Positions 4,073 through 26,620 of a DNA stretch of 41,985 nucleotides are shown in pieces. Under the pieces are notes generated by a model, which was given only the letters and a program-made list of their open reading frames with translations, ran no database searches and was not told the origin of the DNA. A program made the translations under genes and the position numbers. The stretch's first letter is position 1. Each line of letters begins with the position of its first letter. This DNA comes from a virus, in IMG/VR virus record IMGVR_UViG_3300031379_000007, positions 1 through 41,985 of that record; one strand, written 5' to 3'.

Positions 4073-4476
4073 GCCTGACCGCGCCGACCTCGCTGCTCCC
4101 GCTGTTCGCCCCGCGCTCAGGCGCGGAAGCCGAGCAACGTGCTGGCGCTTCCGTGCTGGACCGGATGGCGGATGCGAACCGGGCATGGCTCACGAGGATC
4201 CGGGCCGCGCTAGTGAGCATCTACGAGGCGCGCGTGGCCCGATGGGGCACAACCGATCCCCGGTCCTACGTCTGCGCTGACGATGCGGAGCGGCTTGCCC
4301 GCACGAATCCATACCTGGCCCTGCCAGCTGGCGCATCCCCGAACCTGATGGGCTCGGTATTCCGCACGGCTGAATGGGCGGCCATCGACCGGACCCATGT
4401 GAGTTCACAGCCGGGCTCACACGGCAATCTCCTTACTCGTTGGCGCTACGTCGGCACAGGGAATCAAGCCGCATGA
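4069..4476 (+). CDS. Hypothetical phage protein, winged-helix-like pattern
   Basis: The 135-residue product starts with a GTGA overlap. Its pattern is an N-terminal helix with LDRMADANRAWLTRIRAAL, a middle part of short helices, then GSVFRTAEWAAI and an end reading SSQPGSHGNLLTRWRYVG. The layout (helical domain, then a G-x-V-F-R strand, then S-x-x-x-SHG and R-x-x-x-W-R-Y) resembles small phage proteins of unknown function that look like winged helices. That comparison is from general memory only. It is the last gene before the tRNA region. Confidence 0.6.
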   Translation: MSLTAPTSLLPLFAPRSGAEAEQRAGASVLDRMADANRAWLTRIRAALVSIYEARVARWGTTDPRSYVCADDAERLARTNPYLALPAGASPNLMGSVFRTAEWAAIDRTHVSSQPGSHGNLLTRWRYVGTGNQAA

Positions 4477-4574
4477 CTACGCCTTCCGTGCGGTTGAGAA
4501 AGCGATGCCCGACCGCGAACGGGTCCACCTTCGGGTGTGATGGGCCTTACCCCACCGGCGAGGGGAGAGACACC

Positions 4575-4593
4575 GCCACGGCGTCCGCGTGGC
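4575..4593 (+). other. GC-rich hairpin in noncoding block
   Basis: GCCACG (4575-4580) pairs perfectly with CGTGGC (4588-4593) around a 7-nt loop. It lies in the noncoding stretch 4477-4622 together with a CACC-TTCG-GGTG mini-hairpin near 4530. No T-run follows, so a standard rho-independent terminator is not supported. It may be a processing or attenuation structure ahead of the tRNA. Confidence 0.4.
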
Positions 4594-4622
4594 ACCATCG
4601 TCGGGCACGGAAGGTCGAGAAG

Positions 4623-4694
4623 AGCAGGGTGGAGGAATTGGTACCTCGCCAGGCCCATAACCTGGAGGTCCCGGTTCAAGTCCGGGCCCTGCCA
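4623..4694 (+). tRNA. tRNA-Met (CAT), initiator-like features, no encoded CCA
   Basis: A full cloverleaf can be drawn. The acceptor pairs 4624-4629 with 4687-4692 (6 bp), leaving an A1xC72 mismatch. T8 is present, the D-arm is GAGG/CCTC with GG in the loop, and the anticodon stem is CCAGG/CCTGG with loop CCCATAA and anticodon CAT at 4656-4658. The variable loop has 4 nt, and the T-arm is CCCGG/CCGGG with loop TTCAAGT. A unpaired 1-72 position and an A11:T24 pair are traits of bacterial initiator tRNA. Only two of the usual three G:C pairs (30:40, 31:39) are present at the base of the anticodon loop, and C33 replaces the near-universal U33. Elongator Met or Ile2(CAT) cannot be excluded. Confidence 0.85.
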
Positions 4695-4695
4695 T

Positions 4696-4877
4696 ACGGT
4701 GCCGCCAGCGCGGGCCGCGATCGCTCCACCGCGAAGAGTAGTGCGGTCGGCGCGATAACGAGGGAGACGCGCCTTAGTTATGAACAGAGGGTTTTGACTA
4801 GAAACACGGCCGGCGTGGGGCCGCAACACCGCGTAGCCCGAACCCTCAGGGTTAGGGGTCCAATCCCCCGGCACCGT
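4696..4877 (+). ncRNA. Candidate structured RNA with tRNA-like ends
   Basis: The element starts 2 nt after the tRNA. ACGGTGCCG (4696-4704) is perfectly complementary to CGGCACCGT (4869-4877). Just inside the 3' end is a T-arm-like hairpin, GGGG-TCCAATC-CCCC (4855-4869), one base away from a common T-loop. Upstream of that is a second hairpin, AACCC-TCA-GGGTT (4841-4853), like a class II variable arm. An inner GGCGCG/CGCGCC stem lies near 4753-4777. The 182-nt length is too long for a plain tRNA and short for a tmRNA, and no tag-peptide frame was found. The whole 4477-5005 stretch lacks a credible protein gene. Confidence 0.4.
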
Positions 4878-5005
4878 TCGTCTATCAATTCCGCCGGGCC
4901 AGGGATCATGCGGGCTCTGGGATCGCACGCTCCACCGAACAGTCGGTCGGGAGAAGCTCCAACCCGTTTGCCCTGGTCCGGTAGATCGCACACGGAGAGT
5001 AACGT

Positions 5006-5218
5006 ATGCCGATGATAGCGAAGTGCGACGTCTGCGGCTGCAACGTCACGACGAACGCGGCCAAGGAAGGACTGTACAGCACGCGCGGCAAATTGACGGT
5101 GCGGGTCGAGGTCGTGCGGTCGAACGGCTCGCCCACGCCGATCATCTGCGCGCGTTGTATGCGATTGGCAGCGGCCTACGGCGAAACGTCCGAGCTCGCG
5201 ACGGTGGAAACCCCATGA
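5006..5218 (+). CDS. Small zinc-ribbon-like protein
   Basis: The 70-residue product has KCDVCGCNV near residue 6 and IICARCMRLA near residue 47, two CxxC knuckles 40 residues apart that probably bind one zinc. A ribosome site GGAGAG lies 8 bases before the ATG. It is the first gene after the RNA block and so opens the next operon. No family is assigned and the role is unknown. Confidence 0.65.
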   Translation: MPMIAKCDVCGCNVTTNAAKEGLYSTRGKLTVRVEVVRSNGSPTPIICARCMRLAAAYGETSELATVETP

Positions 5219-5451
5219 TGGACGCCAAGACTCAGACGCGCATGGCCGCAGACCTGGGCGCTACCGGCTGGTGGTGGGCAGTCCAGCGTCGTGACGGGAG
5301 CGGCAACGTCAATCGCCTAGAAGCCGTGCCATGGGAGCGGGTGATCGCGGATCTCTTGCGGCTCGGCTATGTGCCGTGCGGCAACGGCCACGTCGCCCGC
5401 GTGGTGGGCACCATCGGAGCAACTGGTATCCAACCCAAAGATGGAGACTGA
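5215..5451 (+). CDS. Small hypothetical protein
   Basis: The 78-residue product begins at an ATGA overlap (a second ATG follows at 5218). It contains GATGWWWAVQRRDGSG and WERVIADLLRLGYVPCGNGHVARVVG, so it looks like a small alpha/beta fold. No family is recognised. It precedes the clamp-like gene by 3 bases. Confidence 0.55.
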   Translation: MMDAKTQTRMAADLGATGWWWAVQRRDGSGNVNRLEAVPWERVIADLLRLGYVPCGNGHVARVVGTIGATGIQPKDGD

Positions 5452-5454
5452 ACC

Positions 5455-6180
5455 ATGACGCAGATTGACGCCCTACCTCTCGCACGAATCGGTGCGGAGG
5501 ACTGCAAGGCCCTGAAGGCCGCCGTGTCAACCAAGGAGATCCGCCCGATCCTCAACAACGTGCTTCTGCGTGACGGCATCGCGGAGGCAACGAACGGTCG
5601 CGTTCTCGTGCGGGTCCCGATGGTGGGGCCTGGCGGCGAGGAGTTCGCGCTCCCGGCTGACTGCAAGGGCAACCGTTTCCTGCTGCACCGCTCCGCCCTG
5701 GAGCACGTCAAGAGCGGGACGGCGCTCGAAGTGGACATGCGGACCGGGGAGGTCTGGGTCGTCGCGGCCGAGGGCCAGAAGGACGGCTACCCAATCGAGC
5801 TGCCCGACGCGGCGATCGAGACGGAGGGCGTGAAGTATCCGAACACCGACTCGGTTCTGCCCGACGTGGATGAGGACTACCGACGCCTCCGGCTCGGCGC
5901 GCCCGTCCTCAAGGCGATGCTCGCCTTTGCGGGCGGCACGGGGAAACATGCCGGGTCGCTATCGCTCATGATTCCGCCCGAGAAGGATGACGATGGCTGC
6001 ATTGCGACGGCCCTGACATTCCGCCAGCGCGGCGAGCGGCCCCGGACCGGACTCGTCATGCCGATGCGCGAGTTCGACGAAGGTGCAGACGCCCCCGAAC
6101 CGTCCGACGACGATGGGGCCAGCGAACCCGAGCCGGTCGACCCAAACCAGGCCGACGCCTTCGCGGACGATGCGGCATGA
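5455..6180 (+). CDS. Sliding-clamp (DnaN)-like protein
   Basis: The 241-residue product shows clamp-like signatures: RPILNNVLLRDGIAEATNGRVLVRVP near residues 25-55, a YPNTDSVLP segment near 128-136, and GLVMPMRE near 200, which resembles the C-terminal MPMR motif of bacterial beta clamps. It is shorter than bacterial DnaN (about 370 residues), as expected for a divergent phage version with fewer domains, and it ends in an acidic tail of ~40 residues. Clamps tether DNA polymerase to the template. No polymerase gene is in the window, so it may serve the host enzyme or one encoded outside the window. Confidence 0.65.
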   Translation: MTQIDALPLARIGAEDCKALKAAVSTKEIRPILNNVLLRDGIAEATNGRVLVRVPMVGPGGEEFALPADCKGNRFLLHRSALEHVKSGTALEVDMRTGEVWVVAAEGQKDGYPIELPDAAIETEGVKYPNTDSVLPDVDEDYRRLRLGAPVLKAMLAFAGGTGKHAGSLSLMIPPEKDDDGCIATALTFRQRGERPRTGLVMPMREFDEGADAPEPSDDDGASEPEPVDPNQADAFADDAA

Positions 6181-6254
6181 TAGCTGACGGCGTGGTACGC
6201 GACTCATCGGACCCGGCGCAGGTGTCGTGGGTGCCGGATAAAGAGGGGGCATAG
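6177..6254 (+). CDS. 25-residue coupled mini-ORF
   Basis: ATGA overlap with the clamp-like gene; the TAG ends 1 base before the GTG of the methyltransferase gene. The peptide begins [11 protein letters not shown] and shows no family. As at 574-654, it may be a relay peptide filling the gap between two larger genes. Confidence 0.3.
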
Positions 6255-6255
6255 C

Positions 6256-7452
6256 GTGCAGCCCTACTACTCCGACTCGCACGTCCAGATTTTCCACGCC
6301 GACTGTCGGGAAGTGCTGCCCACGCTCGCACCCGTGGAGACATGCATCACCGATCCGCCCTACGGCCTGAGCTTCATGGGCAAGGATTGGGACCATGGCG
6401 TACCGGGCGAACACTTCTGGCGGCTGATCGCGGACGCGCTCCTGCCCGGTGCCATGTGCCTCGCCTTCGGTGGGACGCGCACGCACCACCGGCTCATGGT
6501 GGCGATGGAGGACGCGGGCCTTGAGATCCGCGACTGCCTTATGTGGCTCTATGGCTCTGGGTTTCCGAAGTCGCTCGCGTTGGACAAGGCAATAGATAGG
6601 GCGGCGGGCGCCGAGCGGGAGGTGGTGGGCATGACACTCCACGCACCCGGCATCGGAAACAGGACGGAAGGACACTACACCGTCGGGGGTACCGAGGCAA
6701 AGCGCATACAAATAACCGCCCCCGCGACCGACGCCGCCCGCCTCTGGCACGGCTGGGGCACGGCGCTGAAACCTGCATGGGAGCCCATCATCCTCGCCAT
6801 GAAGCCGCTGGCTGGCACGTTCGCAGAGAACGCGCTGGCGCATGGGGTCGCGGGGCTGAACGTGGACGGGTGCAGGATCGCAGGACTAATCGGCGGTAAT
6901 CCCATGCGGTTTGCCAAGACGGACGGTGGGTGTTTCGCGCACTTCAAGACGCCGCCAATGGTTCGTGCATCCGGTCGCTGGCCCGCGAACCTCGTGCTAG
7001 ACGAGGAGGCGGCCCGGTTGCTGGACGAGCAAAGCGAACAGGAAATGCACGGCGCCGGGCATGCCAGAACGGGAAGCGCGGACCCACGGCCCGTTAACTA
7101 TCGCGGAAGCGTTCCGCTGGCACCGCCCGGCAACACGGGATGGATGCACCGCTTTGGCGACTCCGGCGGCGCCTCCCGCTTCTTCTACACCGCGAAGGCG
7201 AGCCGCTCCGACCGGGGCGAGGGCAATTCGCATCCCACGGTGAAGCCGTCCGACCTCATGGCGTGGCTCTGCCGACTCACCGCAACCCCCACTGGGGGCA
7301 CCGTGCTAGACCCCTTCATGGGCTCGGGCACAACGCTGGTGGCCGCCAAGGAAACGGGCCGCAAGGCCATCGGAATCGAACTTGACGAGAAGTGGTGCGA
7401 GGTCGCCGCCCGCCGCTGCAGCCAGGAAGTGCTAGACCTGGGGACCGCATGA
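6256..7452 (+). CDS. DNA N4-cytosine/N6-adenine methyltransferase
   Basis: The 398-residue product is a beta-class amino-methyltransferase, with the catalytic motif before the cofactor motif. TDPPYGLSF (catalytic DPPY at residues 33-36) comes first. [30 protein letters not shown] (from residue 351), which forms the S-adenosylmethionine pocket, comes at the end. In between are a [15 protein letters not shown] segment and [10 protein letters not shown], typical of phage solitary enzymes. No cognate nuclease is adjacent, so it probably protects phage DNA from host restriction. The GTG start follows a purine-rich AAAGAGGGGG site. Confidence 0.88.
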
Positions 7453-7898: not shown

Positions 7899-8332
7899 GC
7901 GCGCCGATCCGCTGGACGCTGGACAAGATCGTGGCGGCCTATCAGGCCGAGGCACGACGGCTCGGACGCCGGCCGCTTATCAGCGAGGTACCGGCCAGCC
8001 TACGGGGTGCCATCTACGCATGGGGGCTCAAGATCGCGGAGGTGCGCGAGATGTGCGGATTCGGGCCGGAGCCGGATCCCGAGCCGGCCGACGAAGGCCC
8101 GTCGCATGTTTGGCCGCCAGAGACGCCGAACCCTCACGCGCTCACGGCCGCCCAACTCGCCCGCGAGCTCCGCGCCTCACTGCGCCGCCGCCAGCGCACC
8201 GACTGGCGCAGCCACGGCTTCCACACGCTCGGCATCGGGCCGCGCCGCAAGATCCGCCAGCCCGGCCCGGACGCCCGGCTCCTGTTCGTCCCGCCCGAGG
8301 ACCTGGCCCGGCCTAAGAGGACAGCGGCATGA
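7895..8332 (+). CDS. Hypothetical protein with HNH-associated-repeat-like helix module
   Basis: The 145-residue product begins with a helix-turn-helix-like unit: LDKIVAAYQAEARRLGRRP, a short linker, then SLRGAIYAWGLKIAEVREMCGF. This resembles the small DNA-binding repeat found next to HNH homing nucleases, but no nuclease domain follows. The rest is an acidic Pro-rich linker and a very basic arm (RRRQRTDWRSHG) that could contact DNA. It sits between RusA and the C5 methyltransferase with ATGA overlaps. Confidence 0.55.
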   Translation: MSAPIRWTLDKIVAAYQAEARRLGRRPLISEVPASLRGAIYAWGLKIAEVREMCGFGPEPDPEPADEGPSHVWPPETPNPHALTAAQLARELRASLRRRQRTDWRSHGFHTLGIGPRRKIRQPGPDARLLFVPPEDLARPKRTAA

Positions 8333-9039
8333 ACAATCTCGTGCTGTCCCTGTTCCCGGGCATCGGGCTCTTGGATATGGCGTTTGAAGCCGAGGGCTTC
8401 TGTGTCGTGCGCGGCCCCGACCTTCTGTGGGGTGGCGACATCCGGCGCTTCCATCCGCCGGCTGGCGTGTTCGGTGGGGTGATCGGTGGGCCGCCGTGTC
8501 AGGCGTTTTCCATGCTCCGCACATTGCAGAAGGCCCAAGGCTACGAGCCGCGCCACGGGAACTTGATCCCTGAGTTTCAGCGCGTCGTTACCGAAGCTGC
8601 GCCCACTTGGTTCATCATGGAGAATGTCCCGCAAGCTCCTTTGCCGGCCATCGAAGGCTATGGAATCGGTGACCGGCTGATCCGGGATGTATGGGTCGGC
8701 GGCGAAACGCGCCGGATACGTCGCTTCTCCTATGGTCTGCGCGGCATGTCGAATCTCTCGGCCTCGCTCGACTTCCAGCCCGACATGCTCGCGCTCCACA
8801 ACCCCGAACCGGTGCCGGCCGTCACGTCGAGCGACGGCGGCAAGAGTGTGAGGATGGCGCGTTATACGCTGACGGAGATGAAACACCTCACCGGCCTGCC
8901 AGCGGACTTCTTGGACGAGGCGCCCTTCACGGCTGACGGGAAGCGCAAGGTTATCGCGAACGGCGTCCCTCTCCCTATGGGCCGCGCCGTCGCCCGAGCC
9001 GTGAAGGCTGCACTATCCCAAGAGAGGACGGCGGCATGA
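8329..9039 (+). CDS. DNA cytosine-C5 methyltransferase
   Basis: The 236-residue product carries the ordered C5-methyltransferase motifs: motif I LSLFPGIGLLDMAFEAEGF at the start, motif IV GGPPCQAFS with the catalytic Cys57, motif VI MENVP with Glu98, motif VIII-like RRIRRFS, and motif X IANGVPLPMGRAVARAV at the end. At 236 residues it is compact compared with bacterial enzymes (about 320-420), so the target-recognition region between VIII and X is short. It is likely an orphan anti-restriction enzyme, paired with the amino-methyltransferase upstream. Confidence 0.88.
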   Translation: MNNLVLSLFPGIGLLDMAFEAEGFCVVRGPDLLWGGDIRRFHPPAGVFGGVIGGPPCQAFSMLRTLQKAQGYEPRHGNLIPEFQRVVTEAAPTWFIMENVPQAPLPAIEGYGIGDRLIRDVWVGGETRRIRRFSYGLRGMSNLSASLDFQPDMLALHNPEPVPAVTSSDGGKSVRMARYTLTEMKHLTGLPADFLDEAPFTADGKRKVIANGVPLPMGRAVARAVKAALSQERTAA

Positions 9040-13882: not shown

Positions 13883-13966
13883 ATGCCTAAGCGCTCAAGC
13901 ACGGAACCCCACCACGGATGCAGCATGAGCGGTGACCAAAACGCGCGTGGTTGCCCGAAAGGTTAA
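13883..13966 (+). CDS. 27-residue candidate mini-ORF in the gap before the sugar module
   Basis: Begins MPKRSSTEPHHGCSMSGDQN and ends at TAA. A GGTTGGGG stretch before the ATG is a modest ribosome site. No family is recognised. It occupies most of the 137-base gap 13865-14001, which is otherwise the first break in the string of overlapping genes since 5455. Confidence 0.25.
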   Translation: MPKRSSTEPHHGCSMSGDQNARGCPKG

Positions 13967-13977
13967 GCGGTTATATC
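13951..13977 (+). promoter_or_regulatory. Possible sigma70-like promoter before the sugar module
   Basis: TTGCCC (13951-13956) and TATATC (13972-13977) are separated by 15 bases, slightly short. The TTATATCTTT stretch is conspicuously AT-rich for this genome and lies in the only sizeable gap between the replication genes and the PseB-like gene, where a new transcript would be expected. Confidence 0.3.
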
Positions 13978-14001
13978 TTTGCGCGAACGGCACATGGAGG
14001 C

Positions 14002-14961
14002 GTGTTGCGGCACATCCTGGTTACTGGCGGGACGGGGAGTTTCGGGCGTGCGTTTGTGCGGCACGTCTTAGACCACGGGCACCCAACATCCATCCGGGTG
14101 CTGTCCCGGTCGGAGTCCAAGCAGGCGGATATGCGGGCGGAGTTTGGCGACAATGCCAGGCTCCGTTTTCTCGTTGGTGACGTTCGGGACCGTGACCGTG
14201 TGCTGGACGCCTGCCGGGGCGTGGACACGGTGATTCATGCGGCGGCGCTCAAGCGGGTGGACACGGCCGAGAACGATCCCATCGAGGCGGTGCGGACCAA
14301 CATCGACGGCACGGTCTCGGTGGCGCGGGCCTGTGTGGAGCGCGGGGTTGAGAAGGCGGTGTTTTTGTCCACCGACAAGGCCTCAGAACCCAACACGCTG
14401 TACGGTGGCACGAAGTTCGTGGCCGAGCGGTTGTGGCTGGCGAGCAACGTGTACTCGGCCGGCACGGTCACACGGTTCAGCGCGACTCGCTACGGCAACG
14501 TGCTCGGGTCCACGGGCTCGGTCGTGCCGCTCTGGCGCAAGCAGGCTTCCGGTAGTGAGATCACCGTGACCGATCCCGCCATGGGCCGCTTCTGGATGCG
14601 GATGTCCGACGCCGTGGAGCTTGTGATGCTTGCCCTCACCCATATGCGCGGTGGCGAGGTGTTCGTCCCAAAGATCGGGGCGGCGCCGGTCGGCACGTTG
14701 GCGCAGGCGGTCGCGCCGGGCTGCACGTTCCGCGTCACGGGCATCCGGGCCGGCGAGAAGATGCAGGAAAGCCTGATCGGTCCCGACGAGGCCAGGAACG
14801 CGCACGACGCCGGGAGCTGCTACATCATCGAGCCAGCCACAGTGACGTGGGCGACGAACCGCCCGGGCTGCCCCGCCCCGCTCGTTCCGCCCGGCTTTGT
14901 CTACCGAAGCGATACAGCCCGATCCCTCAGCACGGAGGATTTACAGGAGATGCTACGATGA
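14002..14961 (+). CDS. PseB-like UDP-sugar 4,6-dehydratase (extended SDR)
   Basis: The 319-residue product is an extended short-chain dehydrogenase of the PseB/CapD/FnlA group. The NAD(P)-binding VTGGTGSFGR lies at residues ~7-16, then FLVGDVRD, HAAALKRVDTAENDP, STDKASEPNTLYGGTK (Thr124-Asp125-Lys126 and the Tyr134/Lys138 pair), RYGNVLGSTGSVVPLW and TDPAMGRFWM. PseB converts UDP-GlcNAc to the 4-keto-6-deoxy-AltNAc compound, the first step of pseudaminic acid synthesis. Related enzymes act in other sugar pathways. The start is uncertain: GTG 14002 or TTG 14005 follow a GGAGG; TTG 13951 would add 17 residues unlike the family. Confidence 0.82.
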   Translation: MLRHILVTGGTGSFGRAFVRHVLDHGHPTSIRVLSRSESKQADMRAEFGDNARLRFLVGDVRDRDRVLDACRGVDTVIHAAALKRVDTAENDPIEAVRTNIDGTVSVARACVERGVEKAVFLSTDKASEPNTLYGGTKFVAERLWLASNVYSAGTVTRFSATRYGNVLGSTGSVVPLWRKQASGSEITVTDPAMGRFWMRMSDAVELVMLALTHMRGGEVFVPKIGAAPVGTLAQAVAPGCTFRVTGIRAGEKMQESLIGPDEARNAHDAGSCYIIEPATVTWATNRPGCPAPLVPPGFVYRSDTARSLSTEDLQEMLR

Positions 14962-15143
14962 GAACCGCAAAGTGGATTACCGCACTTGTCATCTTGGCCC
15001 TCGCGGGTTGCGTACATGGCACGCCGTTCGAGCCCGAGATGTGCATTGTGACTATGGACAGCTCTGGCACGGTCATGCTGAGTGCCGAGATGTTGGATCG
15101 CTGCCGGACCTGGCAGATTCTGGTGGAGATTCGTAGGCCATGA
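14958..15143 (+). CDS. Mini-lipoprotein (paralogue of 34668-34847)
   Basis: The 61-residue product has a basic start (MRTAKW), a hydrophobic core and a lipobox LALAGC, so the mature protein would begin at Cys18 with a lipid anchor. The mature part starts CVHGTPFEPEMC and ends WQILVEIRRP, with a second and third cysteine. The protein at 34668-34847 shares the lipobox, C-V-x-G-x-P-F-x-P-E, a later CR and the I-x-x-E-I-R-R ending. Location would be the membrane; function unknown (superinfection exclusion and spanin-like roles are open guesses). ATGA overlaps at both ends embed it in the sugar module. Confidence 0.7.
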   Translation: MRTAKWITALVILALAGCVHGTPFEPEMCIVTMDSSGTVMLSAEMLDRCRTWQILVEIRRP

Positions 15144-15889
15144 CAACGATCGCCGGAGTGCCCATCGGAGAGGGCCGCTGCAAGGTGGTGGCCGAGATCA
15201 GCAATAACCACAACAGCGATTACGACCGATGCGTCCGACTGGTCCAGGCGGCGCGAGACGCCGGGGCGGATGTCATCAAGTTCCAAGCGTATACCCCGGC
15301 CGAGCTTGTGGACCTGCGCGGCGACGGGCCCGCGCCGGAGCCGTGGGGCGCGCAGGGCTGGATAATGGGCGCGCTCTACGCCAAGGCACAGACCCCACTC
15401 AAGTGGTTCCCGCGCCTGGCGACGTACTGCACCGACAACGGCATCCCGTGGTTCTCGTCCGTGTTCGGCACCGGCTCGCTCGCGCTGCTCGAGGCGCTGG
15501 ACTGCCCCACGTACAAACTCGCCAGCCTGGACTACGGCAAGCGTTCGCTCGCCCGTGCAGTTGCCCATACAGGCAAGCCCGTTGTCCAGTCGTGCAGCCA
15601 CGTTAACGCCCCCAGGACGTGCGACGTGGCCCTGTGGTGCCCTCCGGGCTACCCCCAGGCTCCCGCGTCGTTCGTGGGGCGATTTGGCGCGAGGCGATAC
15701 GCCGGGTTCAGCTACCACGGGACGGACCCGCTGGTGCCCGCGCTCGCCGCAGCGCACGGGGCGGCCGTCGTGGAGTGCCACGTCATGCTGGACGATGAGC
15801 CGAGCGAGCTGGAAAGCAACGTCAGCCTCACGATCAGCCAGCTCGGCGCGCTCGTCTCGATGCTCGGGACCGTGGAGGCGTGGGGATGA
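15140..15889 (+). CDS. NeuB/PseI-like nonulosonic acid synthase, barrel domain only
   Basis: The 249-residue product matches the NeuB family TIM barrel: VVAEISNNHNSDYDRCVRLV (Glu19), GADVIKFQAYTP, FSSVFGTGSLALLEALDCPTYKLASLDY, GKPVVQS, GFSYHGTDP (His193) and VVECHVMLDD (His214). The two histidines, 21 residues apart, correspond to the metal-binding pair of NeuB. These enzymes condense phosphoenolpyruvate with a hexosamine to make sialic, pseudaminic or legionaminic acid. Family members are usually about 340 residues with a C-terminal SAF (antifreeze-like) domain; here that domain is missing and no neighbouring gene encodes it. VECH replaces the usual IEKH. Confidence 0.82.
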   Translation: MTTIAGVPIGEGRCKVVAEISNNHNSDYDRCVRLVQAARDAGADVIKFQAYTPAELVDLRGDGPAPEPWGAQGWIMGALYAKAQTPLKWFPRLATYCTDNGIPWFSSVFGTGSLALLEALDCPTYKLASLDYGKRSLARAVAHTGKPVVQSCSHVNAPRTCDVALWCPPGYPQAPASFVGRFGARRYAGFSYHGTDPLVPALAAAHGAAVVECHVMLDDEPSELESNVSLTISQLGALVSMLGTVEAWG

Positions 15890-16473
15890 TGGCCCGCGAA
15901 CGCTATCTCGCCATGCTGTCGTCCTGGGCACATTGGGCCGCGACGTCGGACGCGATCGTGCTGCTGGCCGGAGACGGCGAGGAACGGGTGGATGTGGCGT
16001 GCCGGATGATGGCGGTCGGGCCGAACCAGATGCTCGTAATCACGGGCGGATTGGACGATCCGCCCTACTCGCTGACCGCCCGGAAGCTCCGCGCCAAGGC
16101 GCTGGGGCTCGGGGTCGCACCCAGCAAGATCGTGACGGACGGCGCCCTGAACACCCACGAACAGGCCGAGCACGTCGTGGCGCTGGCAAAAGAGCGGGGC
16201 TGGAAGCGGCTGTCTGTCGTCGCCTCGCCCGACCACATAGCGCGTGCCCACCTAACGTTCGTGAAGGTTTTGGATGACGCGGGGCTGGCCGACTCCGTGT
16301 GTGTCATGCCGGTTACCGTTTCGGCCAAGTGGGGTGAGGTGCCAGCCGGTAGAGATTGCACGCGCCTCGATCTGCTCACGGACGAATGCGCCAAGGTCGA
16401 GCGGTACGCCGAGCATGTGGCGACCTGGGAGCGCGGGGTGGGCTATTTGCTCGCCTGGGAAGGCCGCGCATGA
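15886..16473 (+). CDS. DUF218 (YdcF/ElyC-like) protein
   Basis: The 195-residue product fits DUF218. It has DAIVLLAGDGEERVDVACRMM near residue 22, LVITGGLDDPP, a TARKLRAKALGLGV segment, KIVTDGALNTHEQAEHVVALAKERGWKRLSVVASPDHIARAHLTF, and a helical end. In DUF218 the N-T-x-E-N/Q-A motif and the later S-x-x-x-H-x-x-R-A residues form a conserved pocket. YdcF binds S-adenosylmethionine and ElyC/SanA affect the cell envelope, but no reaction is established. No membrane segment is present, so it is probably cytosolic. Position between the synthase and the cytidylyltransferase suggests a sugar or cell-surface role (inference). Confidence 0.75.
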   Translation: MMARERYLAMLSSWAHWAATSDAIVLLAGDGEERVDVACRMMAVGPNQMLVITGGLDDPPYSLTARKLRAKALGLGVAPSKIVTDGALNTHEQAEHVVALAKERGWKRLSVVASPDHIARAHLTFVKVLDDAGLADSVCVMPVTVSAKWGEVPAGRDCTRLDLLTDECAKVERYAEHVATWERGVGYLLAWEGRA

Positions 16474-16802
16474 CGCTCCGCGAGCTGATCGCCCGGTTCC
16501 CCGATCGCTTCTACGCGCAGACGTGGTACGGGGGCGAGGCGTTTCTGGATCGGGAGCCTCGCCCGTGGCTGGGGTGGCCTGACTGGGTAGACCCGTTCTT
16601 GCCGGAGGCGCACCCCGCCTACACCGCCGCCGACCTGGCCGGGCTCTGGCTCGAGGACCCGACCCGCCGCCTCTGGATTTGCTACCTGTGGACGTCGGAT
16701 CTTGATGCGCAGGGCCAGCGCATCTATGTCGGGCAGAACGGGCGCGGGTTCGAGATCCACCGCCACCTGCACCTCAGTGAACGGTGGGGGTGCCCGGTAT
16801 GA
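16470..16802 (+). CDS. Unknown protein of the sugar module
   Basis: The 110-residue product is rich in Trp, Tyr and Pro: FYAQTWYGGEAFLDREPRP, a WPDWVDPFLPEAHPAYTAADLAGLWL segment, then RRLWICYLWTSDLDAQGQRIYVGQNGRGFEIHRHLHL. Aromatic clusters could bind carbohydrate, but no family is recognised. It is coupled by ATGA to both neighbours, so it probably belongs to the pathway. The pathway steps not assigned here are the acetyltransfer and nucleotide-sugar hydrolysis. Confidence 0.6.
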   Translation: MTLRELIARFPDRFYAQTWYGGEAFLDREPRPWLGWPDWVDPFLPEAHPAYTAADLAGLWLEDPTRRLWICYLWTSDLDAQGQRIYVGQNGRGFEIHRHLHLSERWGCPV

Positions 16803-17398
16803 TCGCACCCCTCGCCATAATCCAGGTGCGCATGGGTTCGACTCGGCTGCCCGGCAAGGCGTTGCTACCCATTGCGGGCCGGTCGATGATCCACCGCGTG
16901 TGGGCCACGACGGTTGAGGCGTTTGGTGCCGAGCATACCGTGGTCGCCTATCCAGACACGCCTGAGAACGACCCACTGCGCGACGAGCTAGGCCGCATTG
17001 GCGCGACGCGCTTCGCATGGGATGGCCCCGAGTCCGACGTGCTCGGCAGGTTCCACGCCTGCGCGCACCGCTACCGCTGGCACCCTGACAGCGTGATTGT
17101 CCGGGTCACGGCGGACGATCCGTACAAGGACGTGCTCGCCATGCGCCAGGTCGCGGAAGGCGAGCGGCTACCCGTGGAGTTCGGGGGCGAGGCGTTCACG
17201 CTCGCCATGCTGGATGAGGCGCAACTGTTGACCACGGACCCCGGTGCGCGGGAGCACATCACGCTCGCGCTGTTTCCCACGCCACCCCCCCCCCCGCCTT
17301 CTGGCGTGTGGACAATCGACACGCAGGCGGACTACGACGCCGTGGTGATGGCGACGACAGTTCCCGTTCTACTACAGAGCAGGTGGGTGTCCGCATGA
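16799..17398 (+). CDS. SpsF/PseF-like cytidylyltransferase
   Basis: The 199-residue product has the nucleotidyltransferase start IIQVRMGSTRLPGKALLPIAGR (residues ~7-28; R-x-G-S-T-R-L-P-G-K binds the nucleotide). Further on come SDVLGRFHACAHRY, VIVRVTADDP (metal-binding Asp) and WTIDTQADYDAVV. It resembles the SpsF and PseF/NeuA group that activates nonulosonic acids as CMP-sugars. It is shorter than the usual ~230-250 residues. A run of six prolines near residues 164-169 is encoded by an 11-C tract that could slip. Confidence 0.78.
   Translation: MIAPLAIIQVRMGSTRLPGKALLPIAGRSMIHRVWATTVEAFGAEHTVVAYPDTPENDPLRDELGRIGATRFAWDGPESDVLGRFHACAHRYRWHPDSVIVRVTADDPYKDVLAMRQVAEGERLPVEFGGEAFTLAMLDEAQLLTTDPGAREHITLALFPTPPPPPPSGVWTIDTQADYDAVVMATTVPVLLQSRWVSA
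17285..17295 (+). repeat. Poly-C tract of 11 bases
   Basis: Eleven consecutive C bases lie inside the cytidylyltransferase gene and encode part of a Pro run (CCA CCC CCC CCC CCG CCT). A change of one or two bases would shift the frame and remove the conserved WTIDTQ region. It is the longest homopolymer I noticed in the window. Confidence 0.95.
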
Positions 17399-18417
17399 GG
17401 AACGGCGAGGCGGTGGCTGTCTTCGAGCGCGCGTTCGCGGAATACGTCGGGGCACGCTACGCCATCGCGCTCTCGAACGGAACCGCGACTCTGCATACGG
17501 CCCTCGTTGCGCTCGGGGTCAAGCCGGGGGATCGGGTAGCCGTCCCGCCGCTCACGATGGCGTCCACGAGCATTGCCATCCTGCACGCGGGCGGCGTGCC
17601 CGTCTTCGTGGACGTGGACCCGGATACGTGGCTCATGGACCCACTAGGGGCGGCCAACGTCGGGTATCAGGTGCCAGTATCGCTCTACGGGCTCCATTGG
17701 CAGATAGCGTGCCGTGACACGTTCCGGCGCGCCCTCACGATTGACGATGCGGCGCAAACGCTACGCCACGCTGATGGCCGATTCGCGTTTACGTCCTACT
17801 CGTTCCAGGCGTCGAAGATTCTTGCGACAGGCGAGGGCGGGATGCTGGTGACGAACGACGCGGACCTGGCCCGGAAAGCGCGGGAGTTCTCGTCGCTCGG
17901 CTACCGGATGCGCCCCGACCAGCCGCGCATTGATTCCGCCACGCTCAAGCGCCCGACGTATGAGCGGCACCATGCACTCGGGTGGAACTACCGGATGAGT
18001 GACGCGACCGCCGACGTGGGGCTGGTGGAACTGTCGCGGGCCGATTGGCTCCTGGAGTCGAGGCGCCGCGCGGCTCGGCTCTACGCGCAGGCGGTTGAGG
18101 GGTGTTCGTGGCTCCGGCCCCAGGCCGTGCCACCTGGAGCCACGCACGACTACTGGACCTATGCGGTGGTGCTCGAAAGCGCGGAGCTCTGGCGCCCGTT
18201 CACAGATCTCGTCGTGATCCACGGCGGCGAGATGCCCTACGGCGCGTGGAGGCTCACGTACCAGGAGCCCGCGTTCCGCCACCTGGCCGAGCCCGGTTGC
18301 TGTCCCGTCGCCGAATCGCTGCAACCCCGACTGGTCCAATTCCAGACGAACGACATACTGGCCGCTGCGCGCAACGCCGATGCGGTCCATGCGGCGGTCC
18401 GGGAGCTGAATGGCTAA
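17395..18417 (+). CDS. DegT/DnrJ/EryC1 sugar aminotransferase (PseC-like)
   Basis: The 340-residue product is a PLP-dependent nucleotide-sugar aminotransferase. It has FAEYVGARYAIALSNGTATLHTAL, GDRVAVPPLTMASTSIAILHAGGVPVFVDVDP, LTIDDAAQTL and SFQASKILATGEGGM, with Lys141 the expected PLP lysine, then HHALGWNYRMSDATADVGLVEL. PseC aminates the PseB product, so the pairing is functionally coherent. Relative to typical members the ATG 17395 start is about 15-25 residues short. GTG 17383 adds only four, so the N-terminal substrate-site strand may be reduced. The cognate substrate cannot be told from sequence alone. Confidence 0.82.
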   Translation: MRNGEAVAVFERAFAEYVGARYAIALSNGTATLHTALVALGVKPGDRVAVPPLTMASTSIAILHAGGVPVFVDVDPDTWLMDPLGAANVGYQVPVSLYGLHWQIACRDTFRRALTIDDAAQTLRHADGRFAFTSYSFQASKILATGEGGMLVTNDADLARKAREFSSLGYRMRPDQPRIDSATLKRPTYERHHALGWNYRMSDATADVGLVELSRADWLLESRRRAARLYAQAVEGCSWLRPQAVPPGATHDYWTYAVVLESAELWRPFTDLVVIHGGEMPYGAWRLTYQEPAFRHLAEPGCCPVAESLQPRLVQFQTNDILAAARNADAVHAAVRELNG

Positions 18418-20920: not shown

Positions 20921-22495
20921 ATGGCCGCCAACCTTCCGACCTACGATCCCACTAACTCCGGGAACAAGCCGGGCGACGGTCCGCTGCGTGTTGGTGGACA
21001 GCCGGCTGCCGATCTCACGGTCGCACTCAAGGAAAACAATCCCGCCACGATGAGTCACGCTCGGGAACGTCAGGCCCTGGGTCTCACGCTCGTGCGCGAC
21101 GTATGGGAGGGCGCGGAAAAGGTTCGCTCTTGCGGGCCGACCTATCTGCCGCAGGCGCCCGGCGAGGACGGGCCGAACTACAACATCCGCCTGGCCCGTA
21201 GCGTGTTCCACAACTTCTTCCGCCGCACGGTCGAGGGGCTGGTCGGGCTCATCTACCGCAAAGATCCCGTGCTGGGCGACGACGTGCCGCCGCAGATCAG
21301 GGAGCAGTGGGAGAACCTGGACATGGCCGGCACGCACGGCGACGTATTCCTGCGCGAGATCATGCAGGACGCCTTGATCGCCGGCCACGCCGGGATTCTG
21401 GTGGAGTACCCGGACACCCAGGGCCAGCGGTTCACCCGCGCGGCCGAGACGGCGTTGAAGCTCCGTCCCTATTGGGTGCCGGTACGCAAGGACGACATCG
21501 TGTCGTGGCGCACCGCCATCGTGGACGGGCGCACGATCCTGACGCAGCTCGTCATCAGAGAGAGCCGCTACGCCCCGGCCGGCGAGTTCGGGGAGAAGGA
21601 GGTCACGACGTATCGCGTGCTCTACCTCGACGCGGACATGGTGCCCATGTGGCGGGTGCTCTACGTGACCGAACGTAACGCGGTGGTTACGGTTGCGGAG
21701 GGCGTGTACACGACGCAGCAGGAAATTCCGTTCGCGGAGATTGCCACTTCGGGCAAGCGCGGGATCTTGGATTCCGACCCGCCGCTACTTGACCTGGCCT
21801 ACCTGAACATCGCCCACTATCAGCAGTGGAGCGACTACGCCTTCAGCATCCACAAGACGTGCGTGCCGATCTTCTACGCTGCCGGGGTACAGGTTGCGGC
21901 CGGCGAGAAGTTCGTGGTGGGGGCCAACACGGCGCTCACGTCGCCCGACCCGAACGCGAAGTTCGGCTATGCCTCGCACGACGGGGCCGCGCTGGGGTCC
22001 GTCAAGGGCGCGCTGGACGATCTCAAGGCCGACATGGGCGCGCTCGGGCTGTCGATGCTCATGCCGCAGACCCGTGTGGCCGAGACGGCCGAGGCGAAGC
22101 GGCTGGACAAGAGCACGCAGGACTCCGCGCTGTCCGTTCTAGCCCGCTCGGTCCAGGACGCGGCGGAACGGGCGCTAGGCTTCCACGCCCGCTACCTCGG
22201 GCTGCCCGATGGCGGCTCTATCACGATCAATCGTGACTTCGAGGGGTTGCTGCTGGACGCCTCGGTGATGACGGCCTACGCGGCGCTGGTGCGTGACGCA
22301 GGCTTCCCCGCCCGGCTGGTACTCAAGGCGCTACAGGCGGGTGGTCGGATCGCGGACGACGAGGACCTGGAGGAATTGGAGCTACAGATGGCCGTGGAGG
22401 CCGCGGCGGCCGAGGAACGCAAGCGCGAGGAGCTTGAGTTGCAGGCCGAGGCGGCGCGGTCGGGTAACCCGCCGTCCGGACTGGCCGCCGCATGA
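20921..22495 (+). CDS. Portal protein (DUF4055-like)
   Basis: The 524-residue product follows terminase as portals do. Signatures are NIRLARSVFHNFFRRTVEGLVGLIYRKDPVL near residues 87-117, FLREIMQDALIAGHAGILVEYP, YWVPVRKDDIVSWR, LLDLAYLNIAHYQQWSDY, and a C-terminal ALSVLARSVQDAAERALGFHARYLG with an acidic Glu/Ala-rich tail. This order is characteristic of the DUF4055 portal group. Twelve subunits would form the DNA gate at the head vertex. A 14-base gap separates it from terminase, unlike most neighbours. Confidence 0.82.
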   Translation: MAANLPTYDPTNSGNKPGDGPLRVGGQPAADLTVALKENNPATMSHARERQALGLTLVRDVWEGAEKVRSCGPTYLPQAPGEDGPNYNIRLARSVFHNFFRRTVEGLVGLIYRKDPVLGDDVPPQIREQWENLDMAGTHGDVFLREIMQDALIAGHAGILVEYPDTQGQRFTRAAETALKLRPYWVPVRKDDIVSWRTAIVDGRTILTQLVIRESRYAPAGEFGEKEVTTYRVLYLDADMVPMWRVLYVTERNAVVTVAEGVYTTQQEIPFAEIATSGKRGILDSDPPLLDLAYLNIAHYQQWSDYAFSIHKTCVPIFYAAGVQVAAGEKFVVGANTALTSPDPNAKFGYASHDGAALGSVKGALDDLKADMGALGLSMLMPQTRVAETAEAKRLDKSTQDSALSVLARSVQDAAERALGFHARYLGLPDGGSITINRDFEGLLLDASVMTAYAALVRDAGFPARLVLKALQAGGRIADDEDLEELELQMAVEAAAAEERKREELELQAEAARSGNPPSGLAAA

Positions 22496-23505
22496 GCCCG
22501 GCCGAGAAGGCGCTACGTGAGCGGGTACGTCGTAGGGCGGCTGCCGTCTCGCCGGAATTGGCGAGGCGCACGCTCGCGGCCTACGACATGATCCGCCAGT
22601 CGCCCACGGAGGCCGAGCTTGCCCGCGCGATAGGGGACGGCACTGTGGAGGCGCTGATCGGGGAACTGTTGGGCGACGATACGCTTGACCCAGCGTTCGC
22701 CCGGCTGCGCGCTCACCTGGATCGCGTGACGGCCGACGCCGCGGAGCTCTACGCGGGCGACTTACCGTCCCGGTTCCGCGGGCCGGCGTTCAACGTGCTC
22801 AACCCCAAGACCGTGACCGCCGTGCATACGATGTCGGGCTGGGTCATTGAGCGGATGAAGGCGGAGATCCGGGATACAGTGAGGGAACGGGTAGCCGAGG
22901 GAATCGTGGCTGGCAAGAACCCGCGCGCTATCGCCCGAGGGCTCCGGCATACCATCGGCATGGCACCCAACCAGGCACGCGCGGTCGAGAACTTCCGCCG
23001 AATGCTCGAGGCCGGGGACCGGAGGGCGCTAACCCGCGCGCTCGCCAAGAACATGCTACGCAACGCAGCCGGCAAGGAACTGGTGCGGGCCGGGCACGCA
23101 GGCGGCAAGGGCTTGTCCAAGACGCTACTGGACCTGTTGGACAAGAAGCTGGGCAGGGAACCGCTGTCCGCCGAGGTGATCGACAAGGCGGTGAACGCCT
23201 ACGCGAAACGCCAGCTTGCGTGGAACGTCGAGACGAACACGCGCACCATGGCGCTCAACGCCCAGCGGCTCGGGCAACGGCTGTCGTGGGAGGACGCCAT
23301 AGAGCGTGGTGTGGTGGACCGGACGCGGCTCCAGCGCACCTGGGTCACGGTGGGCGACAGCCGGGTCCGGCCGGAGCATGAGGCAATGAACGGCGAGTCG
23401 GTGCGCTTCGACGAGAACTACTCAAACGGCGACACCTACCCCGGCGAGAGCGACTACAATTGCCGGTGCATCGAGCGTTACTCCATGGCCCGCGAGGCGA
23501 GATGA
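22492..23505 (+). CDS. Minor head / head morphogenesis protein (Mu F / SPP1 gp7-like)
   Basis: The 337-residue product has a long helical N-terminus and, in the last ~80 residues, TWVTVGDSRVRPEHEAMNGESVRF, GDTYPGESDYNCRCIERY. This is the Mu-F-type domain signature (T-x-D-x-R-V-R-x-x-H-x-x-x-N-G and N-C-R-C). These proteins are minor virion components that may travel with DNA. It directly follows the portal gene by ATGA overlap, the usual order. Confidence 0.85.
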   Translation: MSPAEKALRERVRRRAAAVSPELARRTLAAYDMIRQSPTEAELARAIGDGTVEALIGELLGDDTLDPAFARLRAHLDRVTADAAELYAGDLPSRFRGPAFNVLNPKTVTAVHTMSGWVIERMKAEIRDTVRERVAEGIVAGKNPRAIARGLRHTIGMAPNQARAVENFRRMLEAGDRRALTRALAKNMLRNAAGKELVRAGHAGGKGLSKTLLDLLDKKLGREPLSAEVIDKAVNAYAKRQLAWNVETNTRTMALNAQRLGQRLSWEDAIERGVVDRTRLQRTWVTVGDSRVRPEHEAMNGESVRFDENYSNGDTYPGESDYNCRCIERYSMAREAR

Positions 23506-24566
23506 GCAAGGCCCTACGTCGGATGCTGAGGAAGCAGAAGCGGGCGCCAACGCCCACCCCGCCCGAACCGGAGCTCCGGCTCCAGAACCCGGTCGCCGAG
23601 CATTTCGCTGCGTTCATCTTCGGCAACGCGACCAAATGCAAGAAGGTCGTGCAGGTCGGTACGGCCAAGGGTAAGCACCTGGTGATCTGCGGGGCCGGGC
23701 CCACCCTGGCCGACAATCTACATCCGTACATCGACGAGGCAGACGAGGTGTGGGGTTGTAACTCGGCCCTGATCTGGCTGATCGAACATGGCCACCGGGT
23801 CACGCATGGCTTCACGGTGGACCAGACACCGCATATGGTCGAGGAATGGGAGAGCGCGCCGGACGTGCCGTATCTGTTGGCCTCCAGCGTCCACCCAAAC
23901 CTTGTGGAACTGCTGGAGACGGAGGGGCGCGACATCACGTTCTTCCACAACTACGTAGGCGTGAACGCGCCGGATGTATCCTATGGCGTCTGCAAGGACT
24001 GCGGTGCCACGTTGGATAGCAATGCGACGGTCTGCACCTGTGGGTCCTCCAATATCCTCCAGATGACGATGCCGTATGAGGAGTGGCTGTACGAGGCGCT
24101 GTACCCGCCGACGCTCCGCTCCGGCTCAGGCCTGAACACGGCGTCCCGGGCAATCGATGTCGGGCTCGCCATGGGCTTCGACCGAATCACCGTGCTTGGT
24201 GCCGACTCATGCTTGCGGCACACTCGCATTACGGATGCCCCGCAAGGTTCGCCTGAGTACATGGACTGGCTCCGCACGGATGTCGTCATGCACGTGGACG
24301 GGTCCGACGCGCTCCGGTCCGGGGCGACCGCCCTGGTGCTCCAGGCTGAGATCGATGGCCGCATGTGGGTCACGAAACCCGACATGGCGATCACCGCCGT
24401 GTGGCTGGCCGAGATGGCGAGGCACTATGGGTCGCGCCTGGAGTTCGTGGGCGATACGCTGGTCAACGCAATCAAGGACAAGCCCGAGGAGTTCTTGGCC
24501 CGGCTCCCGGCGCTCACTGATTCCAGGGGTCGTCGGCTGAAATTTTGTCCCAATCCGGATGTTTGA
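23502..24566 (+). CDS. DUF115/Maf-like (MptE-like) putative glycosyltransferase in the head operon
   Basis: The 354-residue product has the DUF115 core: KHLVICGAGPTLADNLHPYIDEADEVWGCNSALIWLI from residue ~58, then THGFTVDQTPH, VPYLLASSVHPNLVELL, and after an insertion LNTASRAIDVGLAMGFDRITVLGADS (211-236). DUF115 is shared by archaeal MptE and by the bacterial Maf proteins that attach pseudaminic or legionaminic acid to flagellin. The insertion at ~164-182 carries CKDCG and CTCG, a zinc ribbon. Overlapping the minor head gene by ATGA, it is expressed with the structural genes, so a transferase acting on a virion protein is plausible. Substrate and acceptor are inferred. Confidence 0.75.
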   Translation: MSKALRRMLRKQKRAPTPTPPEPELRLQNPVAEHFAAFIFGNATKCKKVVQVGTAKGKHLVICGAGPTLADNLHPYIDEADEVWGCNSALIWLIEHGHRVTHGFTVDQTPHMVEEWESAPDVPYLLASSVHPNLVELLETEGRDITFFHNYVGVNAPDVSYGVCKDCGATLDSNATVCTCGSSNILQMTMPYEEWLYEALYPPTLRSGSGLNTASRAIDVGLAMGFDRITVLGADSCLRHTRITDAPQGSPEYMDWLRTDVVMHVDGSDALRSGATALVLQAEIDGRMWVTKPDMAITAVWLAEMARHYGSRLEFVGDTLVNAIKDKPEEFLARLPALTDSRGRRLKFCPNPDV

Positions 24567-24717: not shown

Positions 24718-25413
24718 GTGGCCGGCGAGGGCGACAAGACGTACACGCAGGCGGAGGTGGACGCGCTCGTCGAGGAGCGCGTCGGTGGACTGAAGGCCAA
24801 CCGCGACGAGGCGTTGGCGGAGGCCAAGAAGGCGAAGGCGGCGCTCAAGGCTTTCGAGGGGACCGACCCCGAGGAGTACAAGCGCCTGAAGACCGCAGCC
24901 GAGGAGACCGAGCGACAAAGGGCCGCAGCGGAGGGCGACTGGCAGAAGCTGGAGGTGCAGCTGAAGGATCGGCACAAGGCCGAGATGGGTAAGGCTGGCG
25001 CGCGTGCCACGAAGCTCCAGAAGGCCCTTGAGAAGCGGCTGGTCCAGGCCGAGCTAACCGCCGCCATCGTGCGGAGGAAGGGCGACCCGGACCTGCTCCT
25101 GCCTCATGGCGAGCGGTACGTGAGGGTGCGGGAAACGGACGACGATTTCGTCGCCTACGTAGTGGACGAGCAGGGCAACGCGCTGGTAGCGGACGGACAA
25201 GGGACGCCCATGACGTTCGACCAGCTCGTTGAAACGAAGCTGATGGTCAGATTCCCGGCCGCGTTCGAGGGCACGGGATCTAGCGGGGGCGGGGCCTCCA
25301 GGACCGGCGGCGGGGCTGCTGGTAGCGCAAGAACTATTGCGGCGGGCGACGACGCCGCGTTCTTGGCAAACGTGGGGGACATCGCCAAGGGTGCGGTCAA
25401 GGTCGCGCAGTAA
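24718..25413 (+). CDS. Scaffold-like coiled-coil protein
   Basis: The 231-residue product sits directly before the coat gene, the standard place for a scaffold. Residues ~8-110 are a long Ala/Glu/Lys coiled coil, followed by ELTAAIVRRKGDPDLLLPHGERYVRVRETDDDFVAYVVDEQG, then a Gly/Ser-rich linker and a short C-terminal segment. The conserved V-x-x-x-x-G-N-x-L-x-x-x-x-G-T-P-M-T part (near residues 145-165) occurs in scaffold proteins of phages with this type of capsid. The GTG start follows GCAGGGGA by ~8 bases. Confidence 0.65.
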   Translation: MAGEGDKTYTQAEVDALVEERVGGLKANRDEALAEAKKAKAALKAFEGTDPEEYKRLKTAAEETERQRAAAEGDWQKLEVQLKDRHKAEMGKAGARATKLQKALEKRLVQAELTAAIVRRKGDPDLLLPHGERYVRVRETDDDFVAYVVDEQGNALVADGQGTPMTFDQLVETKLMVRFPAAFEGTGSSGGGASRTGGGAAGSARTIAAGDDAAFLANVGDIAKGAVKVAQ

Positions 25414-25471: not shown

Positions 25472-26620
25472 GTGGCCAATACCATTACCAACGTCACCCC
25501 GACCCTTCTGGCTCAGGGCCTCATGGCCCTGCGCGAGCAGGCGGTGATGCCGCGCCTCGTCAACCGCAGCTACGAGAACATGGCTGCGCAGCGCGGCAAC
25601 GTCGTCAACATCCCCATCCCCTCGGCCATCACGGCCCGGGCCGTCACCGCTGCGGTGACTTGGGCGACGAACCAGGACTTCTCGCCCACGTCCGTCGCCG
25701 TGACGCTGGACCGCTGGTACGAGGCGACCTTCCAGCTCTCCGACAACGACGCGCTGAGTGTCGCCGCCGGGACTATCCCGATGCAGGCGAGCGAGGCGAT
25801 CAAGGCGCTGGCGAACGACATCGACGACTATATCCTCGGCAAGCACGTGTCCTTCATGGGCGCGGCCGGGACGGCCGGCACCACGCCGTTTGCCACCAAC
25901 CTCGCCGTGGCGGCTACGGCCCGGAAGACGCTAAACATGCAGCTCGCGCCGAACGAGCCGCGCTATGCGGTACTCGACCCGGCGGCCGAGGCCAACCTGC
26001 TCAACGTGTCCAACGTGCTCGAGTTTGCGAAGCGCGGGGACCCCGGGGGCATCATTCGGGGTGAGATCGGCTACAAGCTGGGCGTGCAGTGGTTCCTCGA
26101 CCAGAACGTCCCATCCTACACGGCGGGAACCGGCTGGGCTTCGGGCTTCATCGCGTCCACGGTGTCGGGCTCGGTGGGTGACACGACGCTCAATATCATC
26201 AACGCGACGGCATCGGGCACCATCAAGGTCGGCGACGTCTTCTCGCTGGTGGCTGATACGGTCTACGGCCAGCAGTACGTGGTGACGACTGCCGCGACCG
26301 CATCGGCTACGGTGGCCGTGGCCATCGGGTTCTACCCGGCGCTGCGGACCACGGTGTCTACGGGCGCGACGCTGACCGTCGTGTCCGGCACCTACGTGGC
26401 GAACCTGCTGTTCCACCGCGATGCGTTCGTGTGGGCGTCGCGTCCGCTCGGGCAGATCGCCAGCCTGGGGAACGTCATGCAGGCGCCCGTGGACCCGGTC
26501 TCGGGCGTGGCACTCAGGCTTGAGATCGCGCGGCAGTACAAGCAGAACACGTTCTCCTACGACTACCTCGGCGGGGCTGCGGTGGTGCGCAAGGAGTTCG
26601 GCTGCAAGCTGCTCGGCTAA
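25472..26620 (+). CDS. Major capsid protein (P22 coat-like)
   Basis: The 382-residue product resembles the P22-type coat family: an N-terminal arm MANTITNVTPTLLAQGLMALREQAVMPRLVNRSYEN, RGNVVNIPIPSAI, WYEATFQLSDNDALSV, and a C-terminal LLFHRDAFVWASRPL followed by GVALRLEIARQYKQNTFSYDYLGGAAVVRKEFGCKLLG. Residues ~225-310 form a Thr/Val/Ala-rich beta insertion with IKVGDVFSL, matching the insertion position seen in this coat family. It forms the icosahedral shell. Its position after the scaffold and the strong GGAG ribosome site fit a highly expressed protein. Confidence 0.85.
   Translation: MANTITNVTPTLLAQGLMALREQAVMPRLVNRSYENMAAQRGNVVNIPIPSAITARAVTAAVTWATNQDFSPTSVAVTLDRWYEATFQLSDNDALSVAAGTIPMQASEAIKALANDIDDYILGKHVSFMGAAGTAGTTPFATNLAVAATARKTLNMQLAPNEPRYAVLDPAAEANLLNVSNVLEFAKRGDPGGIIRGEIGYKLGVQWFLDQNVPSYTAGTGWASGFIASTVSGSVGDTTLNIINATASGTIKVGDVFSLVADTVYGQQYVVTTAATASATVAVAIGFYPALRTTVSTGATLTVVSGTYVANLLFHRDAFVWASRPLGQIASLGNVMQAPVDPVSGVALRLEIARQYKQNTFSYDYLGGAAVVRKEFGCKLLG

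Follow-up and report, generated by a model that had tools for sequence, protein, structure and literature searches.

A putative Maf-like transferase gene in the head operon of uncultured phages carrying nonulosonate synthesis genes

Introduction

Maf proteins are known to glycosylate flagellin with CMP-nonulosonates (PMC9298399, PMC13317340), and Maf1 of Aeromonas acts on flagellin in the cytoplasm through direct contact (PMC4065374). Glycosylation of phage virions has been described in mycobacteriophages (Che8 gp110, Corndog gp38, and Myrna): according to PMC12363180, which cites Freeman et al. 2023, a phage glycosyltransferase modifies proteins of the capsid and the tail tube. Such glycosylation is also cited in PMC12619734. 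The pseudaminic acid pathway proceeds through PseB, PseC, PseH, PseG, PseI and PseF. The PF01973 (formerly DUF115) fold also occurs in phages: BFVD contains MptE-like proteins from uncultured Caudovirales (A0A6J5L5C1, A0A6J7XC21 and others), for which our analysis turned up neither a function nor a connection to nonulosonates.

The locus analysed here lies in positions 1 to 41,985 of the IMG/VR record IMGVR_UViG_3300031379_000007, a stretch of 41,985 nucleotides hereafter called the window. It encodes a PF01973 protein that shares with the Maf flagellin glycosyltransferases (PseD/PseE, Maf1, Maf4; PDB 5MU5) the catalytic fold, the motif order GxGPSL, [CN]SAL, VHP, MGF...GxD and T-x-PD/VRT, a partner CMP-nonulosonate pathway and a presumed cytoplasmic action. 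Unlike Mafs, it is encoded in a head operon and lacks both the Maf N-terminal domain PF20157 (Maf_flag10_N) and the Maf C-terminal domain, and no flagellin gene was seen in the window. A phage-encoded glycosyltransferase is the feature that the locus would share with the mycobacteriophages; PMC12363180, as far as it cites them, refers to glycosyltransferases only, whereas here a Maf-like transferase is accompanied by a sugar-synthesis block. This block has PseB-, PseC-, PseI- and cytidylyltransferase-like genes in common with the pseudaminic acid pathway, but it lacks PseG and PseH, its PseI-like enzyme is without the SAF domain, and it contains two extra conserved genes (DUF218 and X). The BFVD MptE-like proteins are only 13-19% identical to the phage protein and are often fusions of 400-714 aa.

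The first-pass annotation had considered phage-directed glycosylation of a virion protein with a nonulosonate not to be a described system. Virion glycosylation by a phage enzyme is already on record for mycobacteriophages (PMC12363180, as cited there) and Maf glycosylation is known as well, so that the claim narrows to their combination; searches of the open-licence literature for nonulosonate, pseudaminic acid or DUF115 modification of phage virions returned nothing relevant, and we found no report of the combination there.

Results

Genomic position of the Maf-like gene

The Maf-like gene occupies 23502-24566 on the plus strand (ATG at 23502, stop codon ending at 24566, both verified) and encodes a protein of 354 aa, which is a candidate CMP-nonulosonate:protein transferase. 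PHROGs and Pfam assignments gave the order terL, portal, MuF, DUF115, scaffold, coat, all four mapped neighbours being on the same strand: the portal protein gene used as clade marker (DUF4055; phrog_145, 4.6e-108; 20921-22495), the MuF minor head protein gene (PF04233, phrog_3517; 22492-23505), the head scaffold protein gene (phrog_206; 24718-25413), and the major head (coat) protein gene, whose product is a candidate acceptor (phrog_283; 25472-26620). The MuF stop codon and the DUF115 start codon overlap as ATGA, coupling the two genes. The overlap and the neighbouring assignments agree with the first-pass placement of the gene behind a minor head gene and ahead of scaffold and coat, and position and ATGA coupling would make it a glycosyltransferase-like gene within the structural gene cluster of a phage.

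The gene was confirmed to be real and not a chance reading frame, since further IMG/VR contigs carried it, its products had a mean pairwise identity of 50% in a 21-protein alignment, and dN/dS was low. Informative close pairs gave dN/dS values of 0.02-0.10 for DUF115 and 0.07-0.12 for NeuB, indicating strong purifying selection on both.

Elsewhere, the window encoded a Lar-type restriction alleviation protein (PF14354; 11839-12342) and DNA methyltransferase-like proteins (6256-7452 and 8329-9039), and its start harbored a short tandem repeat (10-330) encoding a GQSLAG/GRSLGG-type peptide repeat.

Fold and family of the DUF115 protein

The product of 23502-24566 matched PF01973 with an E-value of 1.9e-10 and 41.2 bits (Pfam gathering cut-off 34.6), as did all 21 aligned homologues, among which G64-A65-G66-P67, N87, D107, D235 and H264 were invariant. 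A zinc-ribbon-like cysteine insert at about residues 168-180 (near 24000-24045) was missing from many homologues. Modelling with AlphaFold2 reached a pLDDT of only 62 with a four-sequence alignment, and the 21-row alignment was used instead (pLDDT 90.6). Foldseek searches of the PDB with this model returned the Magnetospirillum Maf glycosyltransferase 5MU5 as the top match (E 3.1e-8, probability 1.00), followed by the M. jannaschii HPPK/MptE (E 1e-4) and then by ST8SiaIII and ST6GalNAc2, two human transferases of CMP-sialic acid. When the PDB was searched by sequence profile, nothing both significant and relevant emerged, and motif matches to the Cst-I sialyltransferase and MptE remained below threshold.

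Genuine Mafs, defined for profile comparison by the presence of PF20157, aligned with the phage DUF115 family in hhalign over about 200 columns (E 2.1e-6 and 4.8e-7, probability 89-93%), and the match extended beyond the Pfam core into the C-terminal VTKPD/VRTTP region. The aligned phage/Maf motifs were CGAGPTL/NGPSLD, CNSAL/CGSAL, SSVHP/NTVHP and MGFDRITVLGAD/LGFRDVHLFGMD. The fold match to 5MU5 and the hhalign alignment both place the central Maf/DUF115 catalytic domain in the phage protein and support the DUF115/Maf-like assignment made at first pass. PF20157 itself was not found in the phage protein at E<=1, whereas the genuine Mafs matched it in the same library, and the phage protein is 354 aa long compared to 626-693 aa for these Mafs. 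It thus resembles a bare Maf catalytic domain, and is probably Maf-like in mechanism without being a Maf by domain definition.

The nonulosonate synthesis module

Six plus-strand genes formed a module at 13951-18417. The first encodes a PseB-like UDP-GlcNAc 4,6-dehydratase (13951-14961, with a true start possibly at 14002; PF02719, 3e-84; TIGR03589, 352.9 bits against a cut-off of 407.75), and the second a PseI/NeuB-like synthase (15140-15889; PF03102, 6e-32; PDB 8h2c, 9e-29). These were followed by genes for a DUF218 protein (15886-16473; PF02698, 4e-11), for protein X (16470-16802), a 110-aa protein matching no known family whose reading frame was overlooked by naive ORF choice, for a CMP-sugar (nonulosonate) cytidylyltransferase-like protein with an ATGA start (16799-17398; PF02348, 1.1e-13), and for a PseC/LegC-like DegT aminotransferase (17395-18417; PF01041, 1e-57; TIGR04181/TIGR03588). 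Four junctions showed ATGA overlaps, so that the module reads as one translational unit. The best NCBIfam profiles were those of PseB, PseI and LegC/PseC, all scoring under their equivalog cut-offs.

The synthase consists of the barrel only (249 aa): the profile match stops ahead of the SAF domain, which is missing. Its closest solved relative is the pseudaminic acid synthase 8h2c, and it has retained His193 and His214, which we take to be the two histidines of the NeuB metal site. SAF-less synthases of about 240-260 aa were common to the phage modules examined.

By family, the dehydratase, aminotransferase, synthase and cytidylyltransferase steps of the pathway are present. Neither PseG (TIGR03590) nor a PseH-type GNAT N-acetyltransferase (PF00583) was detected in any of the 14 nonulosonate-positive records, making synthesis of a CMP-nonulosonate by the phage alone putative. 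The nonulosonate-type module proposed at first pass therefore stands for its PseB-, PseI-, PF02348- and PseC/LegC-like genes, and falls short at these two steps. DUF218 and X, both kept in 17 of 17 modules examined, are natural candidates that may carry out the missing N-acylation and UDP removal; alternatively, the host could supply them.

Relatives and co-occurrence of the two parts

Single-sequence searches with DUF115 found no relatives in IMG/VR or among INPHARED phages; they were reached through NeuB and then through alignment-based IMG/VR searches, which yielded 12 contigs with the module and 25, later 31, further contigs with DUF115. A portal-based scan gathered 66 relatives. All DUF115 contigs are uncultured and fragmentary, and those from IMG/VR or MAGs that extend over the MuF-scaffold junction as well as the site of the module were considered informative (the window, G004, G008, G014, G024, G025, G026, G034, G038, L136 and the MAG contig L124; the module of G026 is partly cut by the contig end and the DegT gene of L124 lies at the contig edge).

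In all 11 informative contigs, which belong to one clade, a DUF115 gene followed MuF and nonulosonate genes lay upstream of it, and no DUF115 contig long enough to show the module lacked it, the others ending before the module site. The link between DUF115 and nonulosonate synthesis drawn by the first-pass annotation, for which a co-occurrence search had been suggested, thus holds across this set; since the DUF115-positive phages form a single clade, its contigs are not independent observations. Distance matrices of DUF115 and the module genes were weakly correlated in a mirror-tree comparison (n = 8-9), a result that carries little weight for or against the link.

The order MuF-DUF115-scaffold-coat was preserved in the other contigs, frequently with the ATGA overlap. 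In L136, the layout was terL-PseB-NeuB-DUF218-X-CMP transferase-DegT-portal-MuF-DUF115-scaffold-coat, and the module (2106-6824), placed between terL and portal, is therefore inside the packaging and head operon. PF01973 was found in none of 46 control records (Vibrio phage KF4 and 45 portal-scan contigs, most of them from the more distant relatives), and tblastn with DUF115 found no match among isolate phages whose coat (69 records) or MuF (167 records) protein is related. The head genes of Vibrio phage KF4 follow the same order, but there the scaffold-position gene comes immediately after MuF, with nothing between them.

Other sugar-related or methyltransferase-like genes were observed in several contigs. 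Four portal relatives without PF01973 (L076, L080, L083 and L084, corresponding to G039, G043, G046 and G047) encoded, in the structural region, a NeuB that is unrelated and closer to the canonical form; it was accompanied by genes for a NeuA-like CMP-sugar cytidylyltransferase and a methyltransferase in L080 and L084, and by one for a class-III aminotransferase in L080. An unrelated phage (L141, 9827-13260) possessed PF01973, Methyltransf_24 and GT8-like genes just behind its coat gene (phrog_9953). Methyltransferase-like ORFs recognized by motif, with no Pfam match, lay between MuF and DUF115 in L041 and L124 (6602-7516), and APS-kinase-like and cytidylyltransferase-like ORFs lay behind DUF115 in L041, where the stretches concerned are 5613-6668 and 7932-8661.

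Candidate acceptors and additional DUF115 copies

A second DUF115 copy was present behind a coat-proximal gene in L034, L136 (13754-14770, after the coat gene), L137 and L139, while L035 and L052 had tandem copies at MuF; L138, which starts within the coat gene, was counted among the extra-copy contigs. All six extra-copy contigs with enough flanking sequence (L034, L035, L052, L136, L138 and L139) encoded a large (415-907 aa), mostly repetitive Ser/Thr/Ala/Gly-rich protein in the structural region (e.g. L136, 17425-18822; L138, 6059-8779), compared to one of nine single-copy contigs (Fisher p = 0.0014 for an association noticed post hoc). These proteins are possible glycosylation targets.

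The coat protein had also been considered as the acceptor. In the coat alignment, no clade-specific Ser/Thr-rich insert was found, Ser/Thr-rich loops and the insertion region being alike in DUF115-positive and DUF115-negative phages, and the coat was therefore not singled out. Gene position, translational coupling and paralogue context lead us to infer a virion protein as the acceptor. The central first-pass claim, that a virion protein is modified by a CMP-nonulosonate made by the phage itself, thus keeps its Maf-like enzyme and nonulosonate link, and is weakened by a coat alignment without acceptor signature and by the missing PseG and PseH.

Discussion

These observations are best explained by the transfer of a phage-made CMP-nonulosonate to a virion protein, a reading to which we give somewhat better than even credence. 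The product of 23502-24566 would be a soluble Maf-like nonulosonate transferase, co-produced with the head proteins through its translational coupling to MuF, that would act in the host cytoplasm and O-glycosylate one of the structural proteins of the phage, either ahead of head assembly or while it proceeds. As the cytoplasm is also where Maf1 modifies flagellin (PMC4065374), no export would be needed, and a phage enzyme located there could encounter head proteins just after their synthesis. The donor would be a CMP-nonulosonate of the pseudaminic-acid type from the phage module: UDP-GlcNAc would be dehydrated by the PseB-like enzyme and aminated by the DegT aminotransferase, the PseI-like enzyme would produce the nine-carbon acid, and the PF02348 protein would activate it with CTP, with DUF218 and X possibly filling the N-acylation and UDP-removal steps.

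This explanation is supported by the fold and profile match to Maf, the kept head-operon order, the co-occurrence in all informative contigs and the layout of L136, as well as by the lack of PF01973 in distant relatives, the gene order of KF4, the low dN/dS and the extra-copy association. The unrelated NeuB/NeuA-type blocks in the structural region of four distant relatives also speak for it. Counted against it are the similar coat loops, the missing PseG and GNAT genes, the SAF-less NeuB, the restriction to one clade and the fragmentary contigs.

The enzyme might instead transfer the nonulosonate made by the phage to a protein of the host, such as flagellin, pilin or an S-layer protein, thereby altering receptor availability or blocking superinfection. 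Flagellin is the substrate of all experimentally studied Mafs (PMC4065374, PMC9298399), and the phage enzyme would be cytoplasmic as they are; however, the gene is fixed in the late head operon through its ATGA overlap with MuF, and its second copies follow the coat gene, which makes this unlikely. Lysogenic conversion is not favoured either, since an integrase match was lacking in 16 of 17 (incomplete) records and, across a species-level collection of bacterial and archaeal genomes, a single contig was placed in a MAG, assigned to Gemmatimonadetes with a possible binning error, and none in the 297 other genomes of that phylum.

It is a little less probable again that the two parts are functionally unrelated and were co-inherited within one clade, DUF115 decorating the virion with a different sugar of the host and the sugar of the block being used elsewhere. 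The phylogenetically confounded association and the weak distance-matrix correlation would fit such a history, but both parts were kept together while their amino-acid sequences diverged by about 50%, and also through one rearrangement by which the block came to lie beside the portal gene, and CMP-sialic-acid and nonulosonate transferases are among the fold neighbours of the DUF115 protein. A metabolic role as an MptE-type pterin or thiamine pyrophosphokinase fits worst and appears very improbable: although MptE gives the Pfam family its name and MptE structures are the second-best fold matches (E 1e-4), the Maf match is stronger and its profile alignment extended, no pterin genes were seen in the window, and the gene is tied to the head operon and to nonulosonate genes.

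If these phages do glycosylate their virions with a system of their own, they would both produce a sialic-acid-like sugar and couple it to the particle, and a single portable gene set would unite two known processes, flagellin glycosylation by Maf and the glycosylation of phage virions. A fuller and more tentative version, with a probability a little short of even, is that this tailed-phage clade has its own pathway, with DUF218 and X replacing PseG and PseH, a SAF-less PseI, and a minimal Maf decorating its own head or Ser/Thr-rich decoration proteins, as a self-contained viral sialylation-like system. Phage PF01973 proteins would gain a testable role, DUF218 and an unnamed 110-aa family would gain predicted functions, and a minimal Maf catalytic domain would become available for structural and enzymatic work on transferases whose class is as yet labelled putative. 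Unrelated sugar-acid blocks recur in the structural clusters of other phages, which suggests that glycosylated particles are commoner than isolates show. An uncultured phage family whose genes appear able to make most of a bacterial sialic-acid-like sugar, and which encodes a flagellin-glycosylase-like enzyme in its capsid operon, may thus coat its own particles with sugar.
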